From an uncultured Clostridia bacterium (GTDB lineage Bacteria; Bacillota; Clostridia; Christensenellales; UBA1242): 45,658 nt of DNA. The translations under genes were made by a program, and so were the position numbers. Positions 6,001 to 40,968 of the stretch are shown piece by piece (the first letter of the stretch is position 1; each line of letters starts with the position of its first letter). Below the pieces are notes generated by a model. It was not told where the DNA came from. It made no database searches and saw only the letters and a program-made list of their open reading frames with translations. Location of the stretch: the NCBI GenBank assembly GCA_947626155.1, contig CANQRC010000004.1, positions 1 through 45,658 of the forward strand, read 5' to 3'.

Positions 6001-9000
6001 GAAGTTTGTTCCGCAGTTGCCTGCTCTGTGTTTCTTAAGGTTATGTCGTTTAAGAGGATATACCACTGATTTGAGCCCATGTTCATAAATTCGTCAACTT
6101 TTTCAATTGGCAGAGGGCTTTCCTCTGTGCTCTGCTCATTTACATCAAACGAAAATTCAGTGTAAAATCTGTCAGTTCCAATTGAAGTTGAAGAGTAGAT
6201 GTATGTGCCGCCGTCCATGAGATAATAGCCCGAAACTGAGAAGTGATAGATGTTTGCCGTGTGATTATAAACACGGAGAGGCGTGATTGTCAGCCCGTCA
6301 GCTAGGAAGAAATTCGACCTGTAAGTTTGAGTTTGATTTCCTAAATTAACATCAGGCAAGCCGCTTTCATAAACTGTCCAAACAACTTGGCTTGTCATTC
6401 TTGAAACAAAGTTGTTGACATTTTCAACCACGGCTTGATTGTTCTTGTCATATTCAAGAAAATCAGTAATGGCAAGTTCAAGGGTGTATGGGTTTCCAAT
6501 AGTGTTTGTGATGACGCCGTTTTCCATTCCCCTGACAACATCTTCGTTTACACCCTCGGTGTAGTCATAGTTCATAACAAAGTCCATGACGCAAAGTTTA
6601 AGACTGTCATCAAAAGTTATTCTAACATTGTCCACAATCTTGAAAGCGGAAGTGGTAATTGTCACATAAAGTCCAGGATAACCTTGTTGATAAATGATAA
6701 CATCTGGCGAAATTTGAAGCCTAATTGCTCCGTTTTCCTCAACAACATTTGCAACTTTGGTGTTGGAAGAAGTCATTGTAATTTGCTCTCTTTCAAAGCC
6801 GAAAGAATCCAAAATCAGGCTGTATTCAAGCCCGCGCGCAACATAATAGGTGTTGTCAATGGCATTTTTGCTTGCAAACCTAAGTCTTGCATAGCTTCCA
6901 AGCCTTGTGTAATACATCCTGGTTTCTCTTATGGTTTCTTTGTTTTCTCCGCCATGGACAACAGCAATATCAAATCCCACTGGCACTTTGTCGCTTACGC
7001 TGCTTGCAGGCATAATGTAAGAAATGTAAACTTTTCCGCGGTATCTTGCATCACCTTGCTTATTTAAGAAGTTGATCATTTGCTCATATGTGAATGTCAG
7101 CGAGCCGTCTCTGTAAAGCCCAAAGTTTGGAACGGTCTCATAAACAACACTCCCGTTTTCGTCACTGGTTTCATAAGCAAAGGACAAGGAGATTTCCGTT
7201 GCGCCCTGCTGATAATTTGCGGCGTTGTTTGAAATTGTAAAGGTGTCAAACACGGCCTCAATTGGGTCAAGCGTAACTTCCAAAAGCCCTCTTTGAGATG
7301 GCACAACAACCTCGGCTGTGGTTGAAACATCGTTGATGTTTGAGTAGTTGTTTATGCCAATAAATTTAAGTTCTGCCTCGTCAACATAAACTCTTGTAGA
7401 ACACATCACAGTTGTGCCGTTGTCGTCAATTTTGCTTGAATGAAATTCCAAAATATATTCGCCATAAATTGGGTTTAAATAGCGGTTTTTATATTTGTCG
7501 CTTGTTTGATTTATTGCGCAAACATAACTATATTGTTTGCCCGAAGTTTCTTTAAATGTAAAATCAAACAAATCATTGTTGGTTTCGTTGTTAACATAGT
7601 TTTTCCAAGCATCAATGCTGTTTTGTTCAACTCTTCTGCTTTGAACCGAATTTGGGTCTGTTTGTCCGTTTACAACCTTGTGAATTTCATAATAAACAAA
7701 TTCCACATCGTTTGTCGAGACAATTTCAACATAATCCTCAAAATTTTGATTTGTGGTAATTCTGTGAAGCGTAGAGCCCGTGAAAACTCTTTCTGGACTT
7801 TCTTTGTAGGTCAGTGGCAAGTTGGATAATTTTGCGCCGTCAAGTTCAAACACATAAACTTGTCCCTCAACTTCCACCCTCAAAACAGGCGTAAGAGAAT
7901 AGTTATCAACTGCGTTTTCCACTTCTGGTTTTTTTGTCTTATAAAAGATTACAGTCTGCCCGTCCACCTGCGTCCTTGAGAAACTTCCCTCTTTTGGATC
8001 AACGTCAACGGTGAGGTCTGTATTTGGATTTAGAATATAGTTCTTTCCCTGATAGTTAAGGATGCCGTCTTGTGAAATTGAGAATTCCTTTCCGTCAACG
8101 TCACGAGTTGTCTCGCACAAATAACTTGGTCTAAGATACAATTTAGACTTCTTGTCTCCGCGCAATACATAACTTGTATTGTCGTCAACAACGCTTCCGT
8201 TTATGTTGTTGTCGGCAAAGAACAGCGAAGAGTTTATGTCCTTTTTAAAGTAATTTACAGCCAAAATGTATATTGTCTTTGTTTTGATAACATTCAAAAT
8301 GCTTGAGACATTGAGTTTCGCAAGCCCAGTATTTTTAACTGTTATGTTTGCCGAAACATCCACATTCAAAACGCTTGAAGAGCCAGAAATTGTGATGTCT
8401 GGGTCCAAGTCCAAAGTGCCGCCTGCTGGCTTCAGTGGGTGGAAGTCAGAATTTGTGGTTATGTAGTTGAGCCTTGAAATTTCGTCTTGCGCGTAGCCTG
8501 CCTCCTCAACGCCTACAACGCCTTGAACAGAGAAGTAATACATAAAGAACACATCAACTCCGCTTGCGCCGTCGCTGCTTGACAATTTGAAAGGCGTTTC
8601 TTTTCCAATATTTAGTTCAACTTCTTTGTGTTCAAAAACAAACGAAGAAACATAAGAAATTTTATCAACTGTTTTGTTGACAATCAAAATGTCGCCATAG
8701 AACTTGTCTGTATCTGGGCTCTTTTGGTCAAGTTCGGCGCCGCCGTTTTTTTCTTGCAATGTTCTAGCAAGATAAGATGCCGTTTCAAAAGTGAAAGCGT
8801 CATATTTTCTATCATTTCTATAGGCATTCCCAACAATTCCTGCCACAACAATTTGTTCGTTCAAAAGACCTTGTCGTTGATTTTTAAGACTTTCATCATC
8901 TGGGCTATCTTTTAACTTTTCGTCCAGAGCGTCAATTTTATCTTGAATTGTGTCCAAAAGCCCCGCCCCGTCATTTGTAAGCCCGTCTTTGGCCTGTCTG

Positions 9001-12000
9001 ATAATCATTGAACTTTCAAATATTCCGCCGCCAATATCAACAGCCTCAATTGTGTTTCCGCCAACAGATTGTCCTTTTTCGCTTGAGTAATAAACATTGC
9101 TGCTTCCTTCACTGCTGTGATAATTTTCATAGCCAACAACCGCGCCAACATCGTCAAAACCGCGGAGGAAAGTTCTAATAGTGTTGTTTGAAACAAAGAT
9201 GTCTCTGTTTATGCTTGTAAGCGAGTCTGCATAGCCAACAACTCCCCCAACGCCGCTTGCAGTGCGCGTTCCTGTCACATCAATTGAATCAATAATTCCG
9301 CCCACAAGCAAATTGTCAAGTGCAAAAGAAGTTTGCACTGCCGCCTCGTTGTTCTCTGCAATTTCATTTGGAAGAAGTGAGCCTGTTGCAACATAAGTCA
9401 AAACTCCTGCCACGCCGCCAACATCAACATTTCCATTTGTCTGGCCTGTCACCTTTAAAAGGGTGTAAGAAGTATATTTTGAATAGCCCAAAAGCACCAA
9501 TTCGCCATCTTCAATTCTCTTTATGCCTGAATTTGTTGCCCCAACAACGCCGCCGGCATAAACGTTTCCGCCGTTTGTGTTGATGTTCACATAGTCGTCA
9601 TAATAAGCCATAATTTTTGTTGTTTGCCCAGCAAAATTTTCGGCTTCACGAAGAGGCAAGAAGTATTCAACAACACTGCCCTCTTTGTTGACAGACACTT
9701 TTTTAAATGGAACTTTTTCGTTCTTTTGGTTTACAACATAATATTTTGTGTTGCTGTGTTCGTCAACAACAAACTGGTCTTTGCTGACAAAATATGTGTA
9801 AGATGTGTTATTAACTGTTTCGGTGAAATATTGTCCGCCAAGCCCGTCATCTTGCAACCTTCCATCTTTTTCACTGTCGTAAAGCCTAAAATAGGTTTTT
9901 TCATCATATTTTTCAAAGTTTTGGGTAAGTTGCCCAAAATTAAGCCCTGCCACTGTGCCAAAATAAACAGTGCTGTTTCCAGCATTTATGCTAGAAGCCC
10001 TCGAGCCTTTTTCAATTCTCGTGGCAATGTTCACAAGTGAGCCCTGATTTATTGCCGCCAAAAGCCCAACATAGGCGGTTCCGCTCAATGACAAACTATT
10101 AAATCTGCCCGAGAAGGACACATTTTCAATTGAAGGCAACTCATAGGTGACTTCAGTGCTTCCAACCACATCTGTTTGCGAAGGATTTTGGTTTATTTTT
10201 GCAAAAAGTCCAGCATAAACCTTTCCGCCAACAACCGCCTTGAAATTGGTGTCAGAAATTATAATGTCTGTGATTGAGGCTTGGGAAGTTGTTCCAACAA
10301 TTGTTCCGCTGAAGCCCACAACTTTTCCGTCAACAATTCCAATTGGCGTGGCGTTATTTACTGCCGCCATGCTTATTCTTTCACGCAGTTCATAGTGGCT
10401 TGAAAGTTTTATGTCATTCTTTCCAATATCCAAAACATCTTGAGCCGACCTCAAAAGATAAGGGTTCAGCCTGGAGCCATTTCGATATTGAATGTTAAAG
10501 CAAACAGGATTTTGTGACGAGTCAAGAGAAGTGTAAGAAGTTCCCCACTCGGCAGGATAAATGTAAAGTTTGCCGCTTAAATCTGCGTTAATATTTGTAA
10601 TTTGGTCTTTGTATCTTTCAAAGAACTCTTCAACCGAAAGCGCAATTGTATAAATTCCGTTTCGTCTTTGGGAATCATCAACTGTGTAGGTGAGCATTGA
10701 AGCACTGTATTCGTTTGTTGCATTTGGAATAAATTCTATTCTAATAGAGTTATCTGTTGCGTAAGTAGGATTTGTCAAAACGCCAACCGTCTGCACGAGG
10801 TTTTCGTTTGAAAAATCAATGTCTGCGCTTCCAGACACCCTAGAGATGGTTTTAACTTCAACATATTCTTGAGGAACAATGGTTGCGTCATATCTTTTTG
10901 TGAGGTTTGGCTGTTTTAAAAATGCGCTCAAAACAAAAGGATTTTCCCCAATGGTTTCAAGATAAGATAAAGAGTATTTAAATTCAAAGTTGTCTGGATT
11001 ATAAATTAAAGAGCCAAAACTTCCTGTTTTAAATTCGTTTGACCACTCCGTCCCTCTTTTGAAGTCCACCTCATATTCGTCTCCGTCAAATCCATATGTT
11101 GCTCGTTCTGGCAGATAGAACATAAGCCCTCTGCTTATTGTGAATACAACAGTTTTTGCCAAGCTATCCTCGTCGTTCTTTACTATTCTCATCCTAAAAC
11201 TTACGGCAATTGGTCCCATAGAGTTTGCAATATTGAAATAAACATAATTTTTGTCATAACCTGTTTCGTTGTATTCAAGTTTAATCACGCTATCTTGCTC
11301 GGCGATATTAACGCCCTCTTCATAAGTATAAATTCCGTCTTCGCCGCCACTGCAGTTATCATAAATTCTTGAAATAGACTCGCCGTCCAAAGTGTATCTA
11401 TAGAAATTGGTTGAATTTTCATTGAAAACATTTGGCGTCAATTCCACGGAATAAGAACTGATGCTTCCGCCATAATAAACGGTGTTTGAAAGCGCATAAG
11501 CGTCACCATTTTTCAAATAGAACTCTGAGACAAGAGAATAAGAACTTACATGAATTTTGAAGAGCAAAGATTTTCTTGCCTCCGCAAAGCCATTTGCAAT
11601 TGCAGGCCCGCTGAGGTCAAATTCAAGGTCACACGCCCCATTTATTCTGGTTGTAAGGGTGAAAGTCCAATTTGCCCTATTGGCTGTAACAGAAACAATT
11701 TCATTTGAAGATGGATAAACAACAGAATCATAATTTCCTTTGAATGTAAAGGAAACTGTGCTGCCATAAACGACCTCATCTTTTGATGAAGGGTTTAAAA
11801 TTTCTAGGTTTATGCAGTCTTGATAGTTCAAATCCTCTGCACTAGAAGAAAATTCCGCCTTTGTAACCGCGCTGTTTCCCGTGCTTGTAAATTGAAAAGC
11901 CGTCGTCTCTTCTTTCAAAAGCCTTGTGCAATGAAAAGTCAGCCCGCGGTAGGATGTGCCGTTGTCAAGGAAGAAGTCATACACGCCGTCGCCAAGCCTT

Positions 12001-13937
12001 AAAGGCGTTATCTCCAAATTCAAATAATATTTAACTTCGCCCTCTTCATGTTTTGAGGCAAAACCATTTGTGTAAATTGTTCTAAAACTTAAAATGTTTG
12101 TTCCGCCCCTAAATTCAACCCTAACATCTTTAAAGTTTGCGTTTGCATACAAAACATTGTCAAAAGGCGTCATTCTTCTTTCATAGTCAACAAACAGTTC
12201 GTTCCCTTTTTCAGGGTTTATAAATTGGCTTTCAAGCCTAACTTCGCTTGCGCCATCAATTATGTTTACTTTGATTTCTCTAATAATTTCGTCAACACAC
12301 TCGCCAGTTTCGGCATTATAAATTATTCCCTTGCTAACTGCATGAACTTTAATAAATAAAGGTCCTTTGGCAACGGAATTTGCCGTTCTAACTCTAAAAT
12401 CACCGTTCCAATTTGTCAAAAGGTTGTTTTCCCCATAAACGCCTAAGCTTGTGCTGCCAATCACTGCGTCAAGGCCGTCATCAACCTCAAACCAAAGCCC
12501 GTCAACCTTTGGCAGGCTGCCATAACTTGAAACGACATCAATAGAAAAGTTTACATATCCGTTTGGATAAATTTGGTCGTCATATACATTATAAACTTCA
12601 AGCGCCACATCTTCATTTTCCAGCCCATTTACGCGAATGCTTTGAGGTGCAATCACAATTTTAACATTAAAATTCTGATTTCTGTTTACACTTTCGTCGC
12701 CAAAAATTTGTTTTGCAACTTCATAAAAAATGTTTAAGCCAACAGTAACTTCGTTTTGTTTTTGCGTGCTTTGTGAAATTTTCCAATAAGAAATAACATT
12801 TCCCTCTTCGTCAACTTTGTCCTCGGTGTCCGCAGGGTTTTCATAAAATCTATCAAAATCCACAAAATTTGTGTCCTGGAATTTTTGAATTCCAACAGGG
12901 GTATCAGCGTCAATTCCAGTCATCTGCACTTTTATAATAAAGTCTGTCATTTTAGGGTTATTTGGAACAATTAAAACATCAGCGTCTTTGTCATTGAGTG
13001 GCGTGAATGTTGTCTCTTCCAAAGTCTGATTGCTGTTCATATCAAAATAAGCGCCAAAAAAATTTACATTTAAACTTGGCAAAATGTTTACAGGAACAAC
13101 TTGAGAGATGATATTCTTTTCGCTTTGAAGAGATGGCTGATAAATTGCCAAAATTCTAAATTTGCTTTGACTTACAAACAGTTTGTAGTCCACATCCGTT
13201 GGACTAAGGCTCTTCTGCTGCTGCCCTCCCAAAGTAAACTCAAGCGTTTCGCCAACAAGTTCTGCCCTGTCAAATGCGATAAGGTTCACATGAACATCTC
13301 TGTTCACATTATTGGTCAAGGTTGCCGTTCCGCTTTCCAAATCTAAGTCTTTAACATTCTGCAAATTGTCAACATTTGCCGACTCAACATCTTTTTGAAT
13401 GAGAAAATATGAAACATCTTTTTCGGTTGTGTTGCTGTCAAAATTGAATATGCTTGAAGTTGGAACAAACGCTGTTCCGCCCTTGTTTTCATCTCCGCCG
13501 GAAACATATAACACATCTCCGCCATAACTCATTGTCTTTGAGAATTGCCTTACATCAACCCGAACAGAGCTTTCTTTCGAGCCGTCCAAAAGCTTGACAA
13601 CAAGCTCGGCAGACCCGCCGCTGACAGCAGTTACATTCACGCGAATTCTTGTTTGAGAGATATAAGAATATGTATAGTCAAAAATTTTGCCTTCGCCGCC
13701 GCGTTGCGCAACACTGATTGCGTTGCTTAAGCCGTTCTGATAGCCGTTTATGTCAAAAAGAACACTTGTGCTGCCCAGTTCCTCATCATCTACGGTGAGG
13801 TTGATGCCCTCGGGATGGTCATTTGTCAAATAGACCTTGCCATAGTCCACCCCGCAGCCGGCAAAAAACACCCCTGCAAACAACATTGCAAAGATGCCAA
13901 TCAGCGCTATTAAGGTGTTCCTAACAACTTTTGCCAT
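3057..13937 (-). CDS. Giant surface lipoprotein with GLUG / beta-helix modules (3,626 aa)
   Basis: The N-terminus is a lipoprotein signal: a short basic start, a hydrophobic stretch and FFAGC, so Cys28 should be lipidated and the protein exported by Sec and anchored outside the membrane. Residues about 30-1150 look like serial beta-rich, Ig-like segments. Three similar modules follow at about 1150-1770, 2610-2940 and 3080-3530. Modules 1 and 3 open with NPxL-type motifs (LNPYLLRSAQDV, HNPILIGSATDL), and GFDGN/YFEGN-type motifs occur in modules 2 and 3; all continue into repeats like GGVVG, AGLFA or AGFVIENSGEI, as in the GLUG family of surface proteins. Regions between modules are again beta-rich. 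There is no LPXTG motif. The start ATG has AGAGGAG upstream and lies 17 bases after the VirB4-type gene, so the two should be co-transcribed. A role as adhesin or contact protein is inferred from domain type only. Confidence 0.85.
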   Translation of the reverse strand: MAKVVRNTLIALIGIFAMLFAGVFFAGCGVDYGKVYLTNDHPEGINLTVDDEELGSTSVLFDINGYQNGLSNAISVAQRGGEGKIFDYTYSYISQTRIRVNVTAVSGGSAELVVKLLDGSKESSVRVDVRQFSKTMSYGGDVLYVSGGDENKGGTAFVPTSSIFNFDSNTTEKDVSYFLIQKDVESANVDNLQNVKDLDLESGTATLTNNVNRDVHVNLIAFDRAELVGETLEFTLGGQQQKSLSPTDVDYKLFVSQSKFRILAIYQPSLQSEKNIISQVVPVNILPSLNVNFFGAYFDMNSNQTLEETTFTPLNDKDADVLIVPNNPKMTDFIIKVQMTGIDADTPVGIQKFQDTNFVDFDRFYENPADTEDKVDEEGNVISYWKISQSTQKQNEVTVGLNIFYEVAKQIFGDESVNRNQNFNVKIVIAPQSIRVNGLENEDVALEVYNVYDDQIYPNGYVNFSIDVVSSYGSLPKVDGLWFEVDDGLDAVIGSTSLGVYGENNLLTNWNGDFRVRTANSVAKGPLFIKVHAVSKGIIYNAETGECVDEIIREIKVNIIDGASEVRLESQFINPEKGNELFVDYERRMTPFDNVLYANANFKDVRVEFRGGTNILSFRTIYTNGFASKHEEGEVKYYLNLEITPLRLGDGVYDFFLDNGTSYRGLTFHCTRLLKEETTAFQFTSTGNSAVTKAEFSSSAEDLNYQDCINLEILNPSSKDEVVYGSTVSFTFKGNYDSVVYPSSNEIVSVTANRANWTFTLTTRINGACDLEFDLSGPAIANGFAEARKSLLFKIHVSSYSLVSEFYLKNGDAYALSNTVYYGGSISSYSVELTPNVFNENSTNFYRYTLDGESISRIYDNCSGGEDGIYTYEEGVNIAEQDSVIKLEYNETGYDKNYVYFNIANSMGPIAVSFRMRIVKNDEDSLAKTVVFTISRGLMFYLPERATYGFDGDEYEVDFKRGTEWSNEFKTGSFGSLIYNPDNFEFKYSLSYLETIGENPFVLSAFLKQPNLTKRYDATIVPQEYVEVKTISRVSGSADIDFSNENLVQTVGVLTNPTYATDNSIRIEFIPNATNEYSASMLTYTVDDSQRRNGIYTIALSVEEFFERYKDQITNINADLSGKLYIYPAEWGTSYTSLDSSQNPVCFNIQYRNGSRLNPYLLRSAQDVLDIGKNDIKLSSHYELRERISMAAVNNATPIGIVDGKVVGFSGTIVGTTSQASITDIIISDTNFKAVVGGKVYAGLFAKINQNPSQTDVVGSTEVTYELPSIENVSFSGRFNSLSLSGTAYVGLLAAINQGSLVNIATRIEKGSRASSINAGNSTVYFGTVAGLNFGQLTQNFEKYDEKTYFRLYDSEKDGRLQDDGLGGQYFTETVNNTSYTYFVSKDQFVVDEHSNTKYYVVNQKNEKVPFKKVSVNKEGSVVEYFLPLREAENFAGQTTKIMAYYDDYVNINTNGGNVYAGGVVGATNSGIKRIEDGELVLLGYSKYTSYTLLKVTGQTNGNVDVGGVAGVLTYVATGSLLPNEIAENNEAAVQTSFALDNLLVGGIIDSIDVTGTRTASGVGGVVGYADSLTSINRDIFVSNNTIRTFLRGFDDVGAVVGYENYHSSEGSSNVYYSSEKGQSVGGNTIEAVDIGGGIFESSMIIRQAKDGLTNDGAGLLDTIQDKIDALDEKLKDSPDDESLKNQRQGLLNEQIVVAGIVGNAYRNDRKYDAFTFETASYLARTLQEKNGGAELDQKSPDTDKFYGDILIVNKTVDKISYVSSFVFEHKEVELNIGKETPFKLSSSDGASGVDVFFMYYFSVQGVVGVEEAGYAQDEISRLNYITTNSDFHPLKPAGGTLDLDPDITISGSSSVLNVDVSANITVKNTGLAKLNVSSILNVIKTKTIYILAVNYFKKDINSSLFFADNNINGSVVDDNTSYVLRGDKKSKLYLRPSYLCETTRDVDGKEFSISQDGILNYQGKNYILNPNTDLTVDVDPKEGSFSRTQVDGQTVIFYKTKKPEVENAVDNYSLTPVLRVEVEGQVYVFELDGAKLSNLPLTYKESPERVFTGSTLHRITTNQNFEDYVEIVSTNDVEFVYYEIHKVVNGQTDPNSVQSRRVEQNSIDAWKNYVNNETNNDLFDFTFKETSGKQYSYVCAINQTSDKYKNRYLNPIYGEYILEFHSSKIDDNGTTVMCSTRVYVDEAELKFIGINNYSNINDVSTTAEVVVPSQRGLLEVTLDPIEAVFDTFTISNNAANYQQGATEISLSFAYETSDENGSVVYETVPNFGLYRDGSLTFTYEQMINFLNKQGDARYRGKVYISYIMPASSVSDKVPVGFDIAVVHGGENKETIRETRMYYTRLGSYARLRFASKNAIDNTYYVARGLEYSLILDSFGFEREQITMTSSNTKVANVVEENGAIRLQISPDVIIYQQGYPGLYVTITTSAFKIVDNVRITFDDSLKLCVMDFVMNYDYTEGVNEDVVRGMENGVITNTIGNPYTLELAITDFLEYDKNNQAVVENVNNFVSRMTSQVVWTVYESGLPDVNLGNQTQTYRSNFFLADGLTITPLRVYNHTANIYHFSVSGYYLMDGGTYIYSSTSIGTDRFYTEFSFDVNEQSTEESPLPIEKVDEFMNMGSNQWYILLNDITLRNTEQATAEQTSQFMPLTSQIAGFDGNGYEILMGGEYNMTDLTDIGIFATVRENCIIKNMTISLTKDVTINVNTPTYNIGLLTAANEGTIANAVIKSNGHTLSVVYRGTEAVSASYVSGIAAANSGFITNSRSDLNISANVNLSGIVGNNSGKIAGCYYKGGSLYNYTLGTTELTAGFVIENSGEIYSSYVSGQANADDVYYKGTQNTLHANNNIAGFVYENSGVINDCYTNINMEGNGSYVAGFTITNSGTIDRCISWSVLNNRNDSGYGFAGFNELDTEDVEGGKITNCYFLQDPDPDGNGDTSDGVNVNIGNLEDDPNAIILPLTLKQFELGEQVTTEGDAQVDPNDDFTSLFDAYSYQTTKGANAVWFYNDGNAGSRDFGTTVFNKNRLELVSPNIIAFSRRNLDSVESVVDPETGAENVVYNYVYDTTVCEALGAIHNPILIGSATDLEEYVVRQNNSVNINRAYYRLISDIRYDENSDNSALSSTKFLGYFEGNHMEIADIKLVSNNKQNYAGLFAEIGSSDISSVGVVMNMTLTPNEVNFPNATVVGGLAGRLYGGKVFNVDVLPESGITVQGANIVGGVIGLAVGNYEMAHINSTASAKARFLPNLAGNNFNQNSSLLDEYSYAGALVGVATGSGTIKFSKLEDEIRVTGGKVGLMFGLIDTGVTVKDMTIYIQEETRVTTYSQTAGLFVGQSRGNVSGVKVFGLAAVSNPFETTSYVPESVGGFAGTIDSGEVTGVYVSQNILASTTSTRPFETDISTGRGIKYIGGFAGKIVGSASISDVTVDSISIVGTEFVGGVVGGTILTGGVSFADIHVSASLKATGLTVAEAGVGGLVGVVGEGATVKLTATKIQDEKIVRNEFNIEASMEIRVYSLNLASYNLGAIIGLNQSKYSHNVDNSNSSITGKSSIKSVGANENWTESIQTALRGEQVVLEHTSSDEHKPIVHENVFSASECSYSAKVEFELNSETMQIYLTNYGSAVAFN

Positions 13938-13954: not shown

Positions 13955-16651
13955 TTAGTTAAACAGTTGTTTTACATATTCAAGAGCATTGATTTGCACG
14001 GTTGTTCTTGAAGTTGGCCCCGTGATTAAGAAGCCTTGACCGACGCCGGCAGTGACAATTGAGTTTTGTTCTTCCTCATTTATTCCGCCGGACTTTTCAT
14101 AAAGTTGAACGAGGTCATTGATATCACTTGGAGAAAGCGAGAAAATAAGTGAATATTGGCAGGCGTTAATAACCGCAGTTGACTGCCTCTTAATTTCATC
14201 CGAGCCCACAAAGTCGGAAATGTTTTGAGTGATGACAATCTGCATTCCGCCATATTTTCTGATACGTTTTGCCATTTGCGCCATGAAGTCCAACGCAATT
14301 GGGTATTTTGGATTGATGAAGATATGCGCCTCATCAACCGCAATGATAATTTTTCTGTTTTTGCGATATTTTCTGTTGAAATCCTTGTTGTTGATGATTT
14401 CATTGTTCAAATATCTAAACACAAGAAGCATTTGTGCGTTTGTAACTTGGGCGTTGTTTCCCGCAACCAAAGATTGGAAGTTGAATGTAACAAAGTTTTC
14501 GTTTGTTTCGATTGATGTCGGTCCGTTCCAAAGAGAACTGTTTCTTCCGCCCGTTGCAAATTTCTTAATGTAAGTTTCAACGGTCATAAGGTTTCTAAGC
14601 GTAAATTCGTCTCTTGCGGTTTTAATTCTTTCCAAAATAAGGTTGTAAAGGTCGTCAAAGGTTGGATAATCCTCAGGCTTAAGTTTTGCAAGTTTTGTTC
14701 TATAATCAATGTTATGTTTTTTATACATATCAATAATAAGCGAGTTCAAAACTTCAAACGCGTCAGAATTTATTCCCTCCAAAATAACTCTAAAAAATTG
14801 CTCCAAGAATTGTAAGTGCTGAGAGAAACTGTCGTCTGCAACCTCTTCTTTTGGTGCTTTTTCAATCAGTCTGCCATAGTCGTCATACTCTTCCTCTTCT
14901 TCCTCTTCGTCTTCACTTGCTTCCAAAGAGGAAATAACGTGGAAAGGATTGATAATTCCGTGAGTTGAAGAGCCAACATCAATAAACTTTCCACCCAAAT
15001 TGTTTGTCAAATCTTGATATTCGTTTTCCGGGTCAAGAATGAATATTTTGCAGTTGTCGGCGGCAAAATTCGTAAGAAGTGTCTTTGTGGCGTAACTCTT
15101 TCCCGAGCCAGATTTTCCAATGACCATCATGTTAGAGTTAACTCTTTCGCGGTCACGCTTAAAGAAGTCCACAAAAACGGGATATTCGTTGTCGCCAATA
15201 TAAATTCCATTAGGGTCTTGAAGTGCGTTTGAAATAAATGGGAATGTTGCGGCAAGCGTGGAAGTTGGAATTCCTCTCAAACTGTTTTTTACGCTGTCTC
15301 TTTTTGAGATGTTTGAAGAGATAAAGCCGTCAATTTGCCTTGAAAACAACTCGGAATATTTAAAGCCTTGTTGTTTAAGCATTGCGCGAACATCTTTCTT
15401 CGCGGCGTCCTCCGCCACAAGATAAGTGTTGACATTGTAAAGTTGTTGGTTGTTGTTTTTAAGGTTTGCCAAAAGTTCTCTCAAAGTGTCAACGTGGGTT
15501 TGCAACTCAATCTGTGTGGAACTTCTGCCCGCCTTATAAAGTTTTGTCTCCATTTCCATGATGGCCTTATCAATTTGCTTTTCAGATTCAAGTTTTGGAA
15601 TTGGATTAAACTTCATGTGAACTCTTGTTCTGTCCAAAAGGAAGAATTGTGCGCCCCAAGCGTTTCCAACTTGCAAAGGATAGTCAACAAGGTTAAAGCA
15701 GCGGTAGCAAGTGTCGTCAACAAAGAAACGACCAATATTAAATCTTATCTTGTTTGGCAAAGCCCAATTTAGGTGTTCCGTGATAGGCAAAACGTCCAAA
15801 TCTCTTTCATCAAAATCCTTCCCAAGGGTGGATTTCAAAAAGACCATAAGGTCATTGCCCGTCACAAGGTTTGCGTTGATAGGGTTCAACGAAGACGCCA
15901 TGGCGGAAATCATGCCCTTTGTTGTCGTTTCAAGAATTTCCCTATCCTTGTCATACACAACAATATAAAAGTGGTCTTTAAACACCTTTGACTGCCTGTT
16001 CATCATCTCATAAAGCGAAACCCTTTCCTCAAAAATAGGTGAGCGCGCGTCAATTTCCTCTTGGGTAATTTGGCCGTCATATTGCATATCATACAAAACA
16101 TCAAACTTGGCGTTTTCATTGTGAATGTAGTTGTCCAAAATCATAGGCTTTGAAATTTTGATAATTGAACAAGTTTGGTCCATGTTCAAACGCCTGAGTG
16201 CATTTGCAAAACTTTCAATAACGTTGTCTTGATAATATTCCGTCAAAAGCGTGAAGAACATTGGCTGAATTTCAATGACCTGAGCATAATAAATCCCAAA
16301 ATTTATAAACCTGTCTTGGTAAACGCCCTCAAAAGGAATCATTTGTCTGATGGAAGACTTCCCGTTTTCGTCGTCGTCATCTTTACCCTTGACAAACTTT
16401 TTCTTTTGGGCGGAATATCTCAAAAGAAAAACGAGAGTGTTGTAAAATCTTACATCATCTGCAAGCTTAAAAAACATTGAAACGGCAATTATGCACCAAG
16501 CAATGCCAATCCAAATATGTAATTCAAAATTTGCCAAAAACAAAAGAATGGCAATCGCCGCAAAAATGAACCCCAAAATCAGGTCCAACCCGGTGACGCC
16601 TCTTACAAACTCGGCTTTTACTTTGGTTCTTCGTGGAATAACTCTTACCAT
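13955..16651 (-). CDS. PrgI-VirB4-type (TraE/ConE-like) secretion ATPase
   Basis: 898-residue protein of the VirB4 family, the cytoplasmic-face ATPases that power type IV secretion and conjugation. Residues about 24-65 contain two membrane segments resembling PrgI, which is often a separate protein, so this looks like a PrgI-VirB4 fusion. Walker A is GKSGSGKS near residue 512 and Walker B is IIIAVDEAHIF near 765; a QIVITQN motif follows, as in VirB4/FtsK-type motors. A very acidic insertion (EDEEEEEEEYDD) sits near residue 580, between the two nucleotide-binding motifs. The start ATG follows AGAGG. The giant lipoprotein gene follows 17 bases downstream. No relaxase, coupling protein, VirB6/VirB8 homologue or integrase is seen in the window, so it is either a remnant of a mobile element or part of a dedicated secretion device. 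Confidence 0.88.
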   Translation of the reverse strand: MVRVIPRRTKVKAEFVRGVTGLDLILGFIFAAIAILLFLANFELHIWIGIAWCIIAVSMFFKLADDVRFYNTLVFLLRYSAQKKKFVKGKDDDDENGKSSIRQMIPFEGVYQDRFINFGIYYAQVIEIQPMFFTLLTEYYQDNVIESFANALRRLNMDQTCSIIKISKPMILDNYIHNENAKFDVLYDMQYDGQITQEEIDARSPIFEERVSLYEMMNRQSKVFKDHFYIVVYDKDREILETTTKGMISAMASSLNPINANLVTGNDLMVFLKSTLGKDFDERDLDVLPITEHLNWALPNKIRFNIGRFFVDDTCYRCFNLVDYPLQVGNAWGAQFFLLDRTRVHMKFNPIPKLESEKQIDKAIMEMETKLYKAGRSSTQIELQTHVDTLRELLANLKNNNQQLYNVNTYLVAEDAAKKDVRAMLKQQGFKYSELFSRQIDGFISSNISKRDSVKNSLRGIPTSTLAATFPFISNALQDPNGIYIGDNEYPVFVDFFKRDRERVNSNMMVIGKSGSGKSYATKTLLTNFAADNCKIFILDPENEYQDLTNNLGGKFIDVGSSTHGIINPFHVISSLEASEDEEEEEEEYDDYGRLIEKAPKEEVADDSFSQHLQFLEQFFRVILEGINSDAFEVLNSLIIDMYKKHNIDYRTKLAKLKPEDYPTFDDLYNLILERIKTARDEFTLRNLMTVETYIKKFATGGRNSSLWNGPTSIETNENFVTFNFQSLVAGNNAQVTNAQMLLVFRYLNNEIINNKDFNRKYRKNRKIIIAVDEAHIFINPKYPIALDFMAQMAKRIRKYGGMQIVITQNISDFVGSDEIKRQSTAVINACQYSLIFSLSPSDINDLVQLYEKSGGINEEEQNSIVTAGVGQGFLITGPTSRTTVQINALEYVKQLFN

Positions 16652-16770: not shown

Positions 16771-16778
16771 TTCGACAA
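16771..16778 (-). promoter_or_regulatory. Possible Spo0A box upstream of the VirB4-type operon
   Basis: TTGTCGAA on the minus strand matches the core of the known Spo0A binding site, 120 bases upstream of the VirB4-type start. About two chance matches to this 8-mer are expected in a window of this size and composition, so the call is weak. The rest of the 250-base intergenic stretch is AT-rich and shows no gene. Confidence 0.3.
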
Positions 16779-27522: not shown

Positions 27523-29223
27523 TTATTCAGCCTTTGCAAACCATAATTCAACTGTAGTACCAAAATTCTTAATTGAAATTTGATTTGTTGCCTTATCAAT
27601 TTCATATTGTTTTGCCAATTGTGGGTCTGCATGCATTGCTTCAATCAAATCATTTGCAGTGTTGTCGTCCAATGTAAGATTTGTGATGTCCTCTCCAGCA
27701 ATGCGGATGGCTTTGAATTGCAATTCATTTCTTGTTCCCTTATCAGCGCTGTCATAAACAACCGTATCATTTACCAAGCCAAAGAAGTCTCTAAGGGATG
27801 TTGTTCCAACAAGGTAATTGTTTGTGTGTTTGCCAACTGGTTCTCCATTTTCATGGTAAACATCGCCTACACTAATTGCATCAATAGCATTTTTACATTC
27901 AATAACCCCACTGCCATCAACTCTTATTTTATACTCTGTTTCAAATTCTGCGTTGAAGTTAAGAGTTGCTGTTTCGTGTTTATTTGCATCAATCAAAGCG
28001 TTCAAAGCGGTTGTGAGAGCATCTCCGCTAGATTTAATCAGTTCGCCTTCGCCAGCCTTAATTCCGCTAAATTCATAGAAGAAGTATTCTTTGTCATAAC
28101 TCTCTTCATTGAAGAATGCGTCAAACTTGCTTCCATCTTCAACATCATCTACAGTAAACTGAATTGATTGTCCTTGATATGTTGCGCCTTTTGTTTCAGA
28201 AATTTGAGCGGTGTATGTTACGGCCTCACTCGTTACAAAAACGTCAACGCTGAACACATTTTCAAAATCTTGTGCCGTGAAATCGTTTTCGGCAACAGCT
28301 TGGAAGCTACCGCCAATATATCTGTTAAATTCGCCCCATTTATAGCCCTTTGCAAGTTTGTCATCTACATTTACACCCTTATCTTGCAACAAAGCGTCAA
28401 ATCTTGTTTCGTAAGTGTAGGCCTTTGAACTTTCATCACTCTTAGCAAATCTATCAGTTACAATTGCGGTTTTTCCAGAATTGTTCCTGTCTTCATATTT
28501 ATAATAGTTGACAGTGAACATTTCTTTTGCAGCCCAATCATATGTCAAAGTAACATTTCTATCCTTGCGAGCAAGGTCATTTCCGTTAGCATCTTTAAAC
28601 TCTGCACGAGTATAGTGTCTTGTTAAAATGGCACCCTCACCATTATGCAAACACCATCCATTATCAATGTATCCCGTTGCCTTTGCAGCGTCCAAATGTT
28701 CCAATTCTTGCCCATAAATAAGTGTGCTTTGTGACGTTTCGTGGTCAGTTGGGTCTTTTGTTTCAGTTCTTTGTCCCATGTTGTCATCTGGGTCAACGAC
28801 ATAGTTCCAACTTGCAGTATATTTGATAACTTCAAAAACGGCAATATAAGATTTTCCGTTCTCCATTTTTGCTGTAAGCTTGTTTCCATCAGCCAAGTTG
28901 TCTTGGTCTTTCATTTCGTCTGTGTAAGTCTCACCTTCATACCAGCCTACAAAATCATAGCCAACGCTTGAAGCCTCAAGTGTGATTGTGTCCAAGTGGC
29001 TTTGAGAAATTTGGAAATTATTTCTTGTAACAAGTTCTCCGTTATACTTAACGCCCGCAACGGCATCACTTCCTTCAGCGGCCTTATCGCCAGAGATGAG
29101 GATTGTGATGTTTATTACGGCATCAACAGAGTAATATGCAGCAAAAGCCGTGCCAACAACGGTGAGTGGCAAAAGCACAACCAAAGCGCATATAACCAAG
29201 ATTTTAGATAATGTTCTTGACAT
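27523..29223 (-). CDS. Secreted protein with InlB-type beta repeat (566 aa)
   Basis: The Sec signal peptide is clear (MSRTLSKILVICALVVLL, with likely cleavage after AFA). The mature part is acidic and strand-rich, with YDFVGWYEGETYTDE near residue 90 matching the Listeria-Bacteroides InlB B-repeat core (F-x-GW). Further repeat-like segments such as YTASWNYVVD and FTVNYYKYED follow. No LPXTG motif, lipobox, C-terminal membrane segment or cell-wall-binding domain is seen, so how it stays at the cell surface, if it does, is unclear. It is monocistronic, with an AGGAGG ribosome binding site and a strong promoter. A role in surface contact is a family-level guess. Confidence 0.8.
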   Translation of the reverse strand: MSRTLSKILVICALVVLLPLTVVGTAFAAYYSVDAVINITILISGDKAAEGSDAVAGVKYNGELVTRNNFQISQSHLDTITLEASSVGYDFVGWYEGETYTDEMKDQDNLADGNKLTAKMENGKSYIAVFEVIKYTASWNYVVDPDDNMGQRTETKDPTDHETSQSTLIYGQELEHLDAAKATGYIDNGWCLHNGEGAILTRHYTRAEFKDANGNDLARKDRNVTLTYDWAAKEMFTVNYYKYEDRNNSGKTAIVTDRFAKSDESSKAYTYETRFDALLQDKGVNVDDKLAKGYKWGEFNRYIGGSFQAVAENDFTAQDFENVFSVDVFVTSEAVTYTAQISETKGATYQGQSIQFTVDDVEDGSKFDAFFNEESYDKEYFFYEFSGIKAGEGELIKSSGDALTTALNALIDANKHETATLNFNAEFETEYKIRVDGSGVIECKNAIDAISVGDVYHENGEPVGKHTNNYLVGTTSLRDFFGLVNDTVVYDSADKGTRNELQFKAIRIAGEDITNLTLDDNTANDLIEAMHADPQLAKQYEIDKATNQISIKNFGTTVELWFAKAE

Positions 29224-29363: not shown

Positions 29364-30107
29364 TCAGCCGTCCATAATCATTTTGTCCGCAATTAAGGCA
29401 ATGAGTTCGCCATTTGTAGGCTTCTCATTTCTATTATATATCTTCAAACCAAAAATATTGTTAATATTTTCAATTTTGCCCCTGTTCCAAGCCACTTCAA
29501 TGGCATGACGCATCCCTCTTTCAACCTTGCTTGAACTTGTTTCAAAGCGCTCGGCAATGGTTGGATAAAGTTTTTTGGTGATTGAGCCAATAATCTCAGG
29601 CTCCTCCACGGCAAGTTTAACCGCCTCCCTCAAGAATTGGTAGCCTTTGATGTGGGCAGGAATGCCAATACTTATAAATATATTAGAAATTTTCTCGTCA
29701 AGTTGTTTATTCTCATTTTGGGACTTCCCGTTGCTTAGGACCTCAACAATGCGGCTTTCCAAGTTTTCTGGCGAGACAGGTTTCACCATAAAATAACTTG
29801 CGCCCGACTGAATTGCCTTTGTTACAAAGCCACTATGAGAGAGGTTTGAGACAAAGAAAATTTTGGGCATTTTGTCTTTAAGCTGCCTTATTTTTTCAAG
29901 CACGGCAAAGCCGTCAAGGCCAGAGAGCATAACTTCCATAACCAAAACGTCTGGCTTTAAAGAAAGAACGTCTTCGCTCACCTTTTTTCCGTCGGCACTT
30001 GAACCAACAAACTCAAAATTTTCGTTCTGTTTAAAGTAGTTTACAATTTCATCCGTTGTGTCTGCGATGTAAATTTTTGGCAAATTTGTTTCTTTAATCT
30101 TTTCCAT
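29364..30107 (-). CDS. spo0A: Spo0A-type sporulation regulator with an altered phosphorylation site
   Basis: Master transcription factor for sporulation. The ATG at 30107 (MEKIKETNLPKIYIAD) has AAGGAG upstream, giving 247 residues; the ORF track start is 58 codons too early. The C-terminal DNA-binding domain (about 140-247) is well conserved: IGIPAHIKGYQFLREA, GSITKKLYPTIAERF, the recognition helix SSKVERGMRHAIEVAW and KPTNGELIA. The receiver domain is degenerate: the phosphoacceptor Asp is Glu58 (VMEVMLSGLDG against LDIIMPHLDG in Bacillus) and one acidic-pocket Asp is Thr17. The switch Ser87 and Lys109 are kept. If Glu mimics phosphate the protein may be active without a phosphorelay; alternatively it is a second, divergent paralogue. 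Two 0A-like boxes lie upstream. Confidence 0.93.
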   Translation of the reverse strand: MEKIKETNLPKIYIADTTDEIVNYFKQNENFEFVGSSADGKKVSEDVLSLKPDVLVMEVMLSGLDGFAVLEKIRQLKDKMPKIFFVSNLSHSGFVTKAIQSGASYFMVKPVSPENLESRIVEVLSNGKSQNENKQLDEKISNIFISIGIPAHIKGYQFLREAVKLAVEEPEIIGSITKKLYPTIAERFETSSSKVERGMRHAIEVAWNRGKIENINNIFGLKIYNRNEKPTNGELIALIADKMIMDG

Positions 30108-30194: not shown

Positions 30195-30222
30195 TTGTCG
30201 CAAGTAAAACAAACTTGTCGAA
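30195..30222. promoter_or_regulatory. Two tandem Spo0A boxes upstream of spo0A
   Basis: TTGTCGAA (30215-30222) fits the known 0A box exactly and TTGTCGCAA (30195-30203) differs at one core base. They have the same orientation and are 20 bases apart, about two helical turns, roughly 90-115 bases upstream of the spo0A start. This suggests autoregulation. No clear sigma-A or sigma-H promoter was found nearby. Confidence 0.5.
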
Positions 30223-30360: not shown

Positions 30361-30849
30361 GGGACTCATTCTGCTTTTTCTGTCATTCTGAGTATCCCCA
30401 TGCTGTCATTCTGCTCATTGTTGTCATCCTGAGCAACGCGAAGGATCTCAACCACTTTTATTGTTGTCATCCTGCATCGCGAAGCAATCTCGCTGACGGG
30501 CTTTCGGGCGTTGGCGCTGCGGAGTGTAACGCAGTCGAAGGATCTCATACCTATTATGAAAAGATTCTTCCTCTCCGCTTCGCTCCGCGTCAGAATGACA
30601 GCAGGGCGGAGATTCCCTCGAAGACGGGCTTTCACATCCCAAATCGGCCATAAAATTTTGGAGAGAAAGGGCTTTGCCTGCTCTTCAAAATTTTATGGCA
30701 CTTCTACCGATGAAAAATGTCCAGCGGAATTTTTCGAGGTGCGGAAAGGGGTCTTTGTGGGGAAAACGAATTTTAGCGGTTAAAAAAGCACAGCAGTTGC
30801 TGTGCTTTTTGTGTCCGCGTCAAAAATTCTAGTTGTCCCCACACCCACA
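30361..30849. repeat. Intergenic dispersed repeat cluster, copy A
   Basis: No gene is supported in this stretch. It holds several GTCAT(T/C)CTGAGCAACGCGAAG-type repeats, a block at 30466-30521 that recurs inverted in copy B, an inverted repeat CCATAAAATTTTG...CAAAATTTTATGG (about 30648-30698), and the short motifs CGAATTTTAGCGG and TGTCCGCGT followed by ATTCTAGT, all shared with copy B. It ends at the rpsI stop. The ORF-track entries here are chance frames through the repeats. Confidence 0.7.
30782..30810 (-). terminator. Terminator of the rplM-rpsI operon
   Basis: AAAAAGCACAGC-AACT-GCTGTGCTTTTT on the minus strand with a T run, inside repeat cluster A and about 40 bases past the rpsI stop. 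It could work in both directions. Confidence 0.85.
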
Positions 30850-38277: not shown

Positions 38278-39729
38278 TTACATAAGTTTTGAACTGTCTT
38301 GCGTTTCCACGACCTTTAAGATATTTTCTTCCGTTCCGTCTTGCGCATTGAAATATATGTAATATGTTGCGCCGTCTCTTTCACAGACATATTCAAAGCA
38401 AAGCACTTGCCTGTTGTAGTCAAGAGGTGCAAGCACAAGCCTGCTGCCCTTTATCTCAAAAGAGTTGTCAATGCTTGATTTCAACTGTTCGCCGTCAAAT
38501 TTTGGCGTGGCAAGACTTCTGTTTGTGTGATTTGTAAAGTAGGCAATTGCGTCATAGCCAATCACAACTCCCTTTTCCATGTCAACTTTCACTTTTACAA
38601 GGTCAGGATACAACACAACCCCGTTTTGTGTTGGGGTGATGTTGAAAAATGCTTGCGAATTCAACATTTCGTGCCAAACAACGGCTGGCTTTTCAATCCC
38701 ATTTTCCTTTGCAAAGTCAAGCGCAATTTTTTCGGCCTGGTCAAGTTCAATGTTTTTCTCGTCACTGTCCACATTTCCGCTGATAGTCAAAATGTTTCCG
38801 CCAATTTTTGTAACTTGAACATAAAGCCTCTTTTGGTCGGAATTTTTTATTGAAAAATTGTAGGTATCAAACTTGCCCTCGGTCTGCCCCTCAAAATTTA
38901 TTGAAGAGAGGTTTTTAAAAGTCTTGTCAACTTTTTGATAGGCCTCGTCTTTGGACACTTCGCTCCCTTTAAGCCCAACAATTTTTTGATTGACCACACT
39001 GTCCGAAAATGGTCCGTCATAAATCATGGACGGATAATCAGTGTCTGTGGTCTTAATTCCAGAGAAGTTTAGCGTGAAGTCGTCAATTTCGCCGTTCGCG
39101 CGCGAAGAGGCCTCAACAATGCTATAACCCATAATGATTTTTTCAGACATTTGATTTAAATATTGTTTCATTTCGGTCAGGGATTGGTGCATTTCTTTCA
39201 GGGTTGAGATGTCGCCCTCAGTAAGCGCGCCGCCCTTTGCAAGTTTCTCCTCCAAAACTTGTGTGTAGCCCGACATTTGATTGATAAATCTCACGCTTTG
39301 CACAATGTTGTCATTCGAAAGCGGAAGCGCGGCAATATTGGCCTGCATATCCTTTGAGGCGTCCGCAATTTCGCCAAGCATTTTTGCCTGATAATTTTCA
39401 CTGCTCGACGCAAGAAGTTTGCTGATTTTCATGTCCGCGTTGTTAACATTGTCCACAAGTTCATAATAGTTTCTTTTATAAACACTGTCAAGTTGAAGGG
39501 AATATTCGTTTGCCTGCGCCTGCGTCACCCCATAAGCAATCCCAAGCCCAAGAGTGGTTGCGCCCAAAATTCCTGTGGAAATTGCAAGCCCAATCACGGC
39601 GGCTCTCATGCCTTTTTTGCCACTTTTTTCATGTTTTTGCTGATTTTTTTGCATTTTTTGCTCATTTTTAGCATAATTTTTTGAGTTTTTTTGATTTTGT
39701 TCATTATTTTTCATTTCTTTATTTTCCAT
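38278..39729 (-). CDS. ypeB: Germination protein YpeB
   Basis: Partner of the cortex lytic enzyme SleB; it protects and places SleB in the spore. The 483 residues have an unusually long, Lys/Asn/Gln-rich cytoplasmic N-terminus (about 40 residues), one membrane segment (AAVIGLAISTGILGATTLGL) and a long outer part with the family's typical helical N-terminal region and PepSY-like C-terminal repeats (AEKIALDFAKENGI, VKVDMEKGVVIGYDAIAY). The ATG has GAGGTG upstream. It lies 10 bases after sleB, the classic sleB-ypeB pair. Confidence 0.93.
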   Translation of the reverse strand: MENKEMKNNEQNQKNSKNYAKNEQKMQKNQQKHEKSGKKGMRAAVIGLAISTGILGATTLGLGIAYGVTQAQANEYSLQLDSVYKRNYYELVDNVNNADMKISKLLASSSENYQAKMLGEIADASKDMQANIAALPLSNDNIVQSVRFINQMSGYTQVLEEKLAKGGALTEGDISTLKEMHQSLTEMKQYLNQMSEKIIMGYSIVEASSRANGEIDDFTLNFSGIKTTDTDYPSMIYDGPFSDSVVNQKIVGLKGSEVSKDEAYQKVDKTFKNLSSINFEGQTEGKFDTYNFSIKNSDQKRLYVQVTKIGGNILTISGNVDSDEKNIELDQAEKIALDFAKENGIEKPAVVWHEMLNSQAFFNITPTQNGVVLYPDLVKVKVDMEKGVVIGYDAIAYFTNHTNRSLATPKFDGEQLKSSIDNSFEIKGSRLVLAPLDYNRQVLCFEYVCERDGATYYIYFNAQDGTEENILKVVETQDSSKLM

Positions 39730-39739
39730 AACTCACCTC

Positions 39740-40414
39740 TTAAATTGCAAACACATGATGCCCAATTGTGACAACAGTTTTCTTATTGTAAATCCACTTG
39801 TTTGTTGCAGTGCCGGCGTTGTAATAGTAAAGGCAGCCATAAGTTGGGTCCCAGCCGTTCAGAGCATCACGCGCCGCATTTATTGCAGTTTGATTTGGTG
39901 TCAAATTTATCTGCCCGTCATTGACGCAGGTGAACGCCCAAGGCTGATAGATCACACCAGCAATTGTGTTTGGAAAATCTGGGCTTTTCACCCTGTTCAA
40001 TATGACCGCTGCAACCGCCACTTGCCCCGTGTAACTTTCCCCTCGCGCCTCAGCATAAACGCAGTGCGCAAGCAGGTTTAGGTCGTTGCTTGATGTTGTG
40101 CTGTTGTCAGATCCAGAAAGCGACATTCCAAGCGCCTTTGCAGTTTTTGGTCCAACAATCCCGTCAACCGCAAGCCCGTTCTTTTGCTGGAAATATCTCA
40201 CCGCTTTTCTTGTAAGATTTCCATAAATTCCGTCAACCGTGCCGGTGTAGTAGCCCCACCTTTTAAGTTTTGTCTGCACGGTTCTGGTTTGACTTGTCGT
40301 CAAGGCCTCCGCCACCTCAACATTTATGTAGTTCAGTGCAAGAACGCTCGTTCCTGCCACACCCATAAATGCGAACGCGAATGCAAAAATAAGTGAAACA
40401 ATTTTTTTCTTCAT
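39740..40414 (-). CDS. sleB: Spore cortex-lytic enzyme SleB
   Basis: Lytic transglycosylase that breaks down spore cortex peptidoglycan at germination. 224 residues from the ATG at 40414 (MKKKIVSLIFAFAFAF), with CGGAGG at 7 bases. A signal peptide is followed by a peptidoglycan-binding domain (VQTKLKRWGYYTGTVDGIYG, AVDGIVGPKTAKALG) and the SleB catalytic domain with YAEARGESYTGQVAVAAV, which contains the catalytic Glu, then VILNRVKSPDFPNTI and GWDPTYGCLYYYN. Operon with ypeB downstream and spoIIR upstream. Confidence 0.96.
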   Translation of the reverse strand: MKKKIVSLIFAFAFAFMGVAGTSVLALNYINVEVAEALTTSQTRTVQTKLKRWGYYTGTVDGIYGNLTRKAVRYFQQKNGLAVDGIVGPKTAKALGMSLSGSDNSTTSSNDLNLLAHCVYAEARGESYTGQVAVAAVILNRVKSPDFPNTIAGVIYQPWAFTCVNDGQINLTPNQTAINAARDALNGWDPTYGCLYYYNAGTATNKWIYNKKTVVTIGHHVFAI

Positions 40415-40443
40415 TCTTTTCCTCCGTTTTTTGATAAATAAAA

Positions 40444-40968
40444 TCAAATTACATTAGATAGAATATCCCAAATTCGTGATTTATACTCAAAACTTTGAAA
40501 ATTTTTTGTGGAAGTGAAGCAAACGGATGGAAAAACCACGCACCACCAATTGTCACCACCGCCCCTGCCAAGTTGAATTTTCAAACTGTCATAAACGCCC
40601 TCTTCAAAAACGTTTTCGCCATAAACGCGCGCGGGCATTTCCTCTTTCGTCAAAGTTATCTTCGCCCCATAGCCAACTTTTTTGTCTTTAAGCGCAAGAG
40701 AAACAACCTCTTCCACTTTTTCAATGTTCGCGCCAAGAAAATTTTTCACTTCGCCTCCGTCAGAAAAGTTTTCAAGTTCCTTTTCAAGATAGGTGACCAC
40801 AACATCCTTGACGAAGTATTTCACTTCCTCGTCATATGCCGAATTTGAGTTTGCCACAACATGAATTCTAACAACTTCCTCTTCTTGCGTTTTTGGCTTT
40901 TGTCCGCCAAACAAAACCACCGCCAAAACAATCAATCCAACTCCAAAAAATGAAATTACATATTTCAT
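40444..40968 (-). CDS. spoIIR: Stage II sporulation protein R
   Basis: Forespore signal protein that crosses the septum and triggers processing of pro-sigma-E in the mother cell. The preferred start is the ATG at 40968 (MKYVISFFGVGLIVLAVVLF), with GGAGAGG upstream, giving 174 residues; the ORF-track start is 67 codons earlier and lacks support. After the membrane or signal segment come VRIHVVANSNSAYDEEVKYF and DNWWCVVFPSVCF, the family hallmarks. In Bacillus the gene is sigma-F dependent; no such promoter could be named here. It is the first gene before sleB-ypeB, 29 bases apart. Confidence 0.92.
   Translation of the reverse strand: MKYVISFFGVGLIVLAVVLFGGQKPKTQEEEVVRIHVVANSNSAYDEEVKYFVKDVVVTYLEKELENFSDGGEVKNFLGANIEKVEEVVSLALKDKKVGYGAKITLTKEEMPARVYGENVFEEGVYDSLKIQLGRGGGDNWWCVVFPSVCFTSTKNFQSFEYKSRIWDILSNVI

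Follow-up and report, generated by a model that had tools for sequence, protein, structure and literature searches.

The locus raises the question of how a Spo0A protein can govern sporulation when the aspartate that normally receives the phosphoryl group has been replaced. The window, the whole stretch of 45,658 nucleotides that was analysed, belongs to a metagenome-assembled genome (MAG) of 1.02 Mb that is 96.6% complete; the genomes compared with it are MAGs as well. The first-pass annotation had read one of its genes as spo0A, and reading frame, coordinates and identity are borne out. The open reading frame starts with ATG at 30107, preceded by AAGGAG, and ends with a stop codon at 29364. 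The protein scores 229 bits against TIGR02875, the NCBI equivalog model for Spo0A (cut-off 200), which places it among the Spo0A proteins, and both halves are recognized by Pfam (PF08769 131 bits, PF00072 58 bits). The predicted model has a mean pLDDT of 87.6 with a receiver fold close to 1qmp; in the fold search it resembled phosphorylated and activated receivers alike and does not discriminate the state. With a receiver fold and a glutamate, E58, in place of the aspartate, the domain falls among the aspartate-less receivers. Since Glu58 replaces the phosphorylatable residue, the sequence describes a Spo0A homologue with a pseudo-receiver rather than a canonical phosphorylated response regulator. 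The positions of the features are collected in Table 1.

Table 1. Features of the window that bear on Spo0A and sporulation
Feature	Positions	Strand	Remarks
spo0A	29364..30107	-	247 aa; predicted pseudo-receiver at about residues 10-126, Spo0A_C DNA-binding domain at 140-242
Glu58 codon (GAA)	29934..29936	-	Stands at phosphoacceptor Asp56 of Bacillus Spo0A
Asp16 and Thr17 codons	30057..30062	-	Asp16 kept in 113/113 loci; Thr17 marks a lost acidic-pocket Asp, column free in the genus
Ser87 codon (switch Ser/Thr)	29847..29849	-	99 Ser and 14 Thr in 113 loci
Lys109 codon	29781..29783	-	Invariant in the genus, 113/113 loci
0A box TTGTCGAA (TTCGACAA in spo0A direction)	30215..30222	+	About 115 bp upstream of the start
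ypeB-like germination gene	38278..39729	-	PF14620, PF20769
SleB-like cortex hydrolase gene	39740..40447	-	PF07486 and PF01471

The residues of the phosphorylation site were placed by aligning the protein, with HMMER, to the Bacillus Spo0A receiver of known structure. The stretch KPDVLVMEVMLSGLDGFAVL aligns on PDVLVLDIIMPHLDGLAVL, which puts E58 on D56, as the first-pass annotation had it from the codon. Asp16 falls on Asp10 and Thr17 on Asp11, Ser87 on the switch threonine and Lys109 on K108, in agreement with its further claims that one acidic-pocket aspartate is a threonine and that the switch residue, the lysine and the DNA-binding domain are kept. The DNA-binding half aligns to 1lq1 and 1fc3 at E values of about 1e-36; for the DNA-bound structure 1lq1 the value is 2.2e-36 with a TM-score of 0.92 over the target, so that the domain that carries the recognition helix is retained. 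By these residues the magnesium pocket of the Spo0A of the genus is half dismantled. Retention of the first pocket acid and the lysine with loss of the second acid is the usual pattern of aspartate-less receivers, in which glutamate is also the commonest replacement (26%; PMC4395418), and the Spo0A of the genus follows it.

The protein, the only full-length Spo0A of the genus, is probably a pseudo-receiver Spo0A that is active without phosphoryl transfer, is still the DNA-binding regulator of sporulation, and is controlled by autoregulation of its level or by some other input. Glu58, held by Asp16, Lys109 and Ser87, would keep the receiver wholly or partly in a phosphorylation-like state, in which Spo0A would bind 0A boxes with no phosphoryl group transferred to it. 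The sporulation decision would be set by the amount of Spo0A, with the conserved 0A boxes ahead of spo0A as the site of feedback, a step inferred from the DNA motifs, and stand-alone Spo0A_C proteins would possibly tune this feedback by competing for the same boxes. Glutamate is known to mimic phospho-aspartate in NtrC and some other proteins, and that Glu58 does the same is put forward as a hypothesis. Caution is needed because two members of the genus have Asp and no HisKA kinase, because one genome of another family (G055) has Glu together with kinases, and because the change from Asp to Glu alone is not enough to activate Bacillus Spo0A, according to the part of PMC4395418 that cites Green 1991. 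The same change is likewise insufficient in CheY or PhoB (PMC4395418), and changing the residue equivalent to the phosphosite had no effect in some pseudo-receivers (PMC12632262).

A different role for the glutamate follows if the pseudo-receiver has acquired a new input. A small molecule or a partner protein on the conserved faces would then control dimerisation and DNA binding, and Glu58 would be structural, in a salt bridge with Lys109, rather than a permanent on-signal. Within the genus 23 receiver columns are invariant, several of them different from Bacillus Spo0A (H91, G93, F94, R119, F85), which argues that some function beyond that of a passive spacer has been selected, and pseudo-receivers controlled by ligands exist elsewhere (PMC12632262). 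Synteny around spo0A is fluid, however, with no constant neighbour save a repeat protein found beside it in 35 of the 80 loci, and the reading is on the unlikely side.

The history of the glutamate was followed by scanning 85,462 species genomes and by searching the window's own genome together with 60 relatives, 61 in all. This gave 113 loci with full Spo0A in the genus and its close relatives, some of them in duplicate; removal of duplicates left 86 distinct sequences. Column 58 holds Glu in 110 and Asp in three of the 113 loci, duplicates included. The first-pass annotation had allowed that the column might vary among relatives with no functional meaning; in the genus the distinct sequences give Glu in 84 and Asp in two, with the codons GAA (58), GAG (26), GAT (1) and GAC (1). 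That Glu58 is a quirk of one odd MAG is ruled out by these 86 sequences, which come from many samples. In a Spo0A tree built without column 58, from a quick search on this single protein, the genus comes out as a supported clade; each of the two Asp sequences is a lone tip nested among Glu sequences, so that both are most simply taken as likely reversions. On this tree column 58 has undergone at least 22 codon changes, almost all between GAA and GAG, against two amino-acid changes, both to Asp. The median receiver column has 10 amino-acid changes, and pocket column 17 has changed at least 23 times. The codon has thus changed often with the residue left as it was, and Glu is therefore held by selection; drift of the column is ruled out by the count. 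What is constrained at the column may be its acidity and not the glutamate itself, since the two Asp-bearing relatives also are without a HisKA kinase.

The codon count also bears on the view that the receiver is degenerating, with the kinases lost, Glu58 a harmless leftover and the DNA-binding domain working alone. The receiver does evolve much faster than the DNA-binding domain (mean column entropy in the genus 1.21 against 0.15 bits), residue 17 is free, the phosphosite of other families in the order is occupied by C, Q or N, and the stand-alone Spo0A_C proteins are examples of the domain occurring with no receiver. A drifting site would not have stayed acidic, however, and Lys109 and Asp16 never change; for column 58 degeneration is largely refuted, and as an account of the protein it is very improbable.

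The window's genome (in a MAG of the completeness given above) has no HisKA match, and its sole receiver domain (PF00072) is Spo0A itself, so that no Spo0F-like receiver was found. Its four HATPase_c matches are, by sequence, GyrB, a second subunit of the GyrB/ParE type, MutL and SpoIIAB. A second full-length spo0A was searched for in the genome and none was found, which speaks against the gene being a paralogue of a canonical copy. The suggestion of the first-pass annotation that this Spo0A does not need a phosphorelay is supported by these absences together with the constraint on column 58. Independence from a phosphorelay is well supported, and it comes close to being shown that the Spo0A of the window's genome has no kinase of its own to act on it. 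That Spo0A is still modified, on the glutamate itself or at a different residue, with acetyl phosphate, a serine/threonine kinase or some other enzyme responsible, is hardly to be expected: pseudo-receivers are in principle modifiable at other residues (PMC4395418), but without the second pocket acid a metal-dependent transfer of the phosphoryl group is unlikely.

The state of the window's genome is shared by most of the genus. HisKA is absent in 34 of 37 genus genomes and present in 23 of 24 other families of the order (Fisher p ~1.5e-12, kinship uncorrected), and exactly one receiver was found in 29 of the 37. The three exceptions (G004, G009 and G012) have one HisKA kinase each, with a receiver about 1 kb away as in an ordinary pair. 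Extra HATPase_c matches that are unexplained occur in G002, G008, G015, G016 and G028, and for this reason a lack of kinases of every type is asserted for the window's genome and for the majority of the genus, but not for each of its members. The Spo0E phosphatase is absent from all 61 genomes of the order sample and is uninformative as a discriminating marker. Full-length Spo0A was not found in G006, G012, G017 and G032, which keep SpoIVA and stand-alone Spo0A_C; these could be MAG gaps or true losses, and a true loss is not claimed since about 2.2 missing are expected from incompleteness alone.

Other families of the order mostly keep Asp at column 58, with Glu, Cys, Gln and Asn also occurring. 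Glu recurs in G045, G063 and G070 and, in a different family, in a large genus (f20/g20). The branches with strong support require the Glu label to have changed at least four times, and Glu arose in other lineages of the order as well. Loss of the kinases is not a precondition for Glu, because G055, the one genome of family f20 that was searched for HisKA, keeps histidine kinases. The Glu clade of f20/g20 comprises L117, L165-L172, L176, L179, L180 and L182, and both acidic-pocket residues are lost in it (GQ). In G061, from another family, two full-length Spo0As are found (L160 and L161), one with Asp and the other with Cys at the phosphoacceptor.

Between the 0A box of Table 1 and spo0A stands a second CGACA element, 20 bp closer to the gene. 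Among 80 loci a perfect 0A box occurs at -94 to -138 of spo0A in 51, nearly always in the same orientation, against 2.6 expected from shuffling. Where the box is present the second CGACA follows at the fixed step of 20 bp, and its last two bases are invariant in 47 loci. Because of the conserved upstream box and the nearly unchanging DNA-binding half, the Spo0A of the genus has very probably kept both its binding to 0A boxes and its action on its own gene. Genome-wide TTGTCGAA is enriched (48 occurrences, against 20 for the reversed control); a genome-wide regulon is not claimed, as just 10 of 44 examined sites fall between genes. Elsewhere in the window a perfect 0A-type box (16771-16778, minus strand) lies about 120 bp before an open reading frame for a TraG/VirB4-like ATPase (13955-16651), which precedes one of 3626 aa (3057-13937).

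The DNA-binding domain also occurs in proteins of its own. The window's genome encodes two receiver-less Spo0A_C proteins of about 125-136 aa (L002:1420-1830, G000:C38; L003:1471-1848, G000:C17), the first with a 0A box about 70-96 bp upstream of its gene. Most genomes of the genus carry one to four such proteins, and the VER..R core of their recognition helix is for the most part retained. An upstream 0A box is present in 6 of 22 loci against 0.4 expected, the 22 including one truncated protein and one full Spo0A that has no box and was picked up by mistake. It is a guess that these proteins compete with Spo0A or relay it.

Compared with known systems, the protein shares with the Spo0A of Bacillus and Clostridia (TIGR02875) the two-domain layout, the length, the DNA-binding domain, the 0A box at its own gene, the lysine, the Ser/Thr and the first pocket aspartate. 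It differs in having no phosphorylatable aspartate and no second pocket aspartate, and in a genome where no kinase and no second receiver (no Spo0F) was found. The direct phosphorylation of Spo0A by an orphan kinase in Clostridia likewise does without Spo0F, but that design needs the orphan kinase, of which none was found here. If Spo0A is read correctly here, it shares its independence of phosphorylation with the engineered constitutive form sad67; that form, an internal deletion in the receiver, was made in the laboratory, whereas the present change arose in nature and affects the phosphoacceptor directly. The phospho-aspartate is also replaced in the pseudo-receivers ChxR, RitR, HP1043 and GlnR, which, unlike the present case, are not Spo0A proteins. 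A literature search, thin on subscription journals, gave no report of an aspartate-less receiver in Spo0A or of D56E in Spo0A, nor of an aspartate-less receiver fixed in a genus that has lost nearly all two-component signalling. Such receivers are thus known as a kind, and their occurrence in Spo0A, as read from these sequences, appears new.

A 2024 review holds that sporulation begins in every endospore former with Spo0A, which is activated when a conserved aspartate is phosphorylated (PMC11210211), and an orphan kinase was present in 47 of 48 surveyed spore-formers (PMC6136694). A natural, genus-wide Spo0A without the aspartate, in genomes without kinases, is a counter-example to the statement of the review. 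Because the phosphosite is replaced throughout the genus and the kinases are lost in most of its genomes, spore formation probably starts here in a way not yet described. The wider proposal leans towards this gut genus of uncultured Clostridia with very small genomes, probably of the order Christensenellales, starting its endospores, in most genomes, without any two-component signalling, through a Spo0A that is active free of phosphate, its level or an input still to be identified deciding, and towards the order having moved there more than once. On the question of how pseudo-receivers are switched on and off, still unsettled according to PMC12632262, the genus amounts to an evolutionary experiment with independent lineages that can be compared.

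Core sporulation genes are kept in these putative spore formers. SpoIVA was found in 36 of the 37 genus genomes, the spoIIAA-spoIIAB-sigF operon is intact in the window's genome, and the window itself carries the germination and cortex hydrolase genes of Table 1. Directly downstream of spo0A lies the gene of a secreted-looking repeat protein of 566 aa (27523-29223), placed likewise in 35 of 80 relatives. Intergenic repeats of the type GTCATTCTGAGC...CGAAGGATCTC are found at 30366-30640 of the window and upstream of spoIIAA in L155, and are apparently a dispersed repeat of the window's genome.
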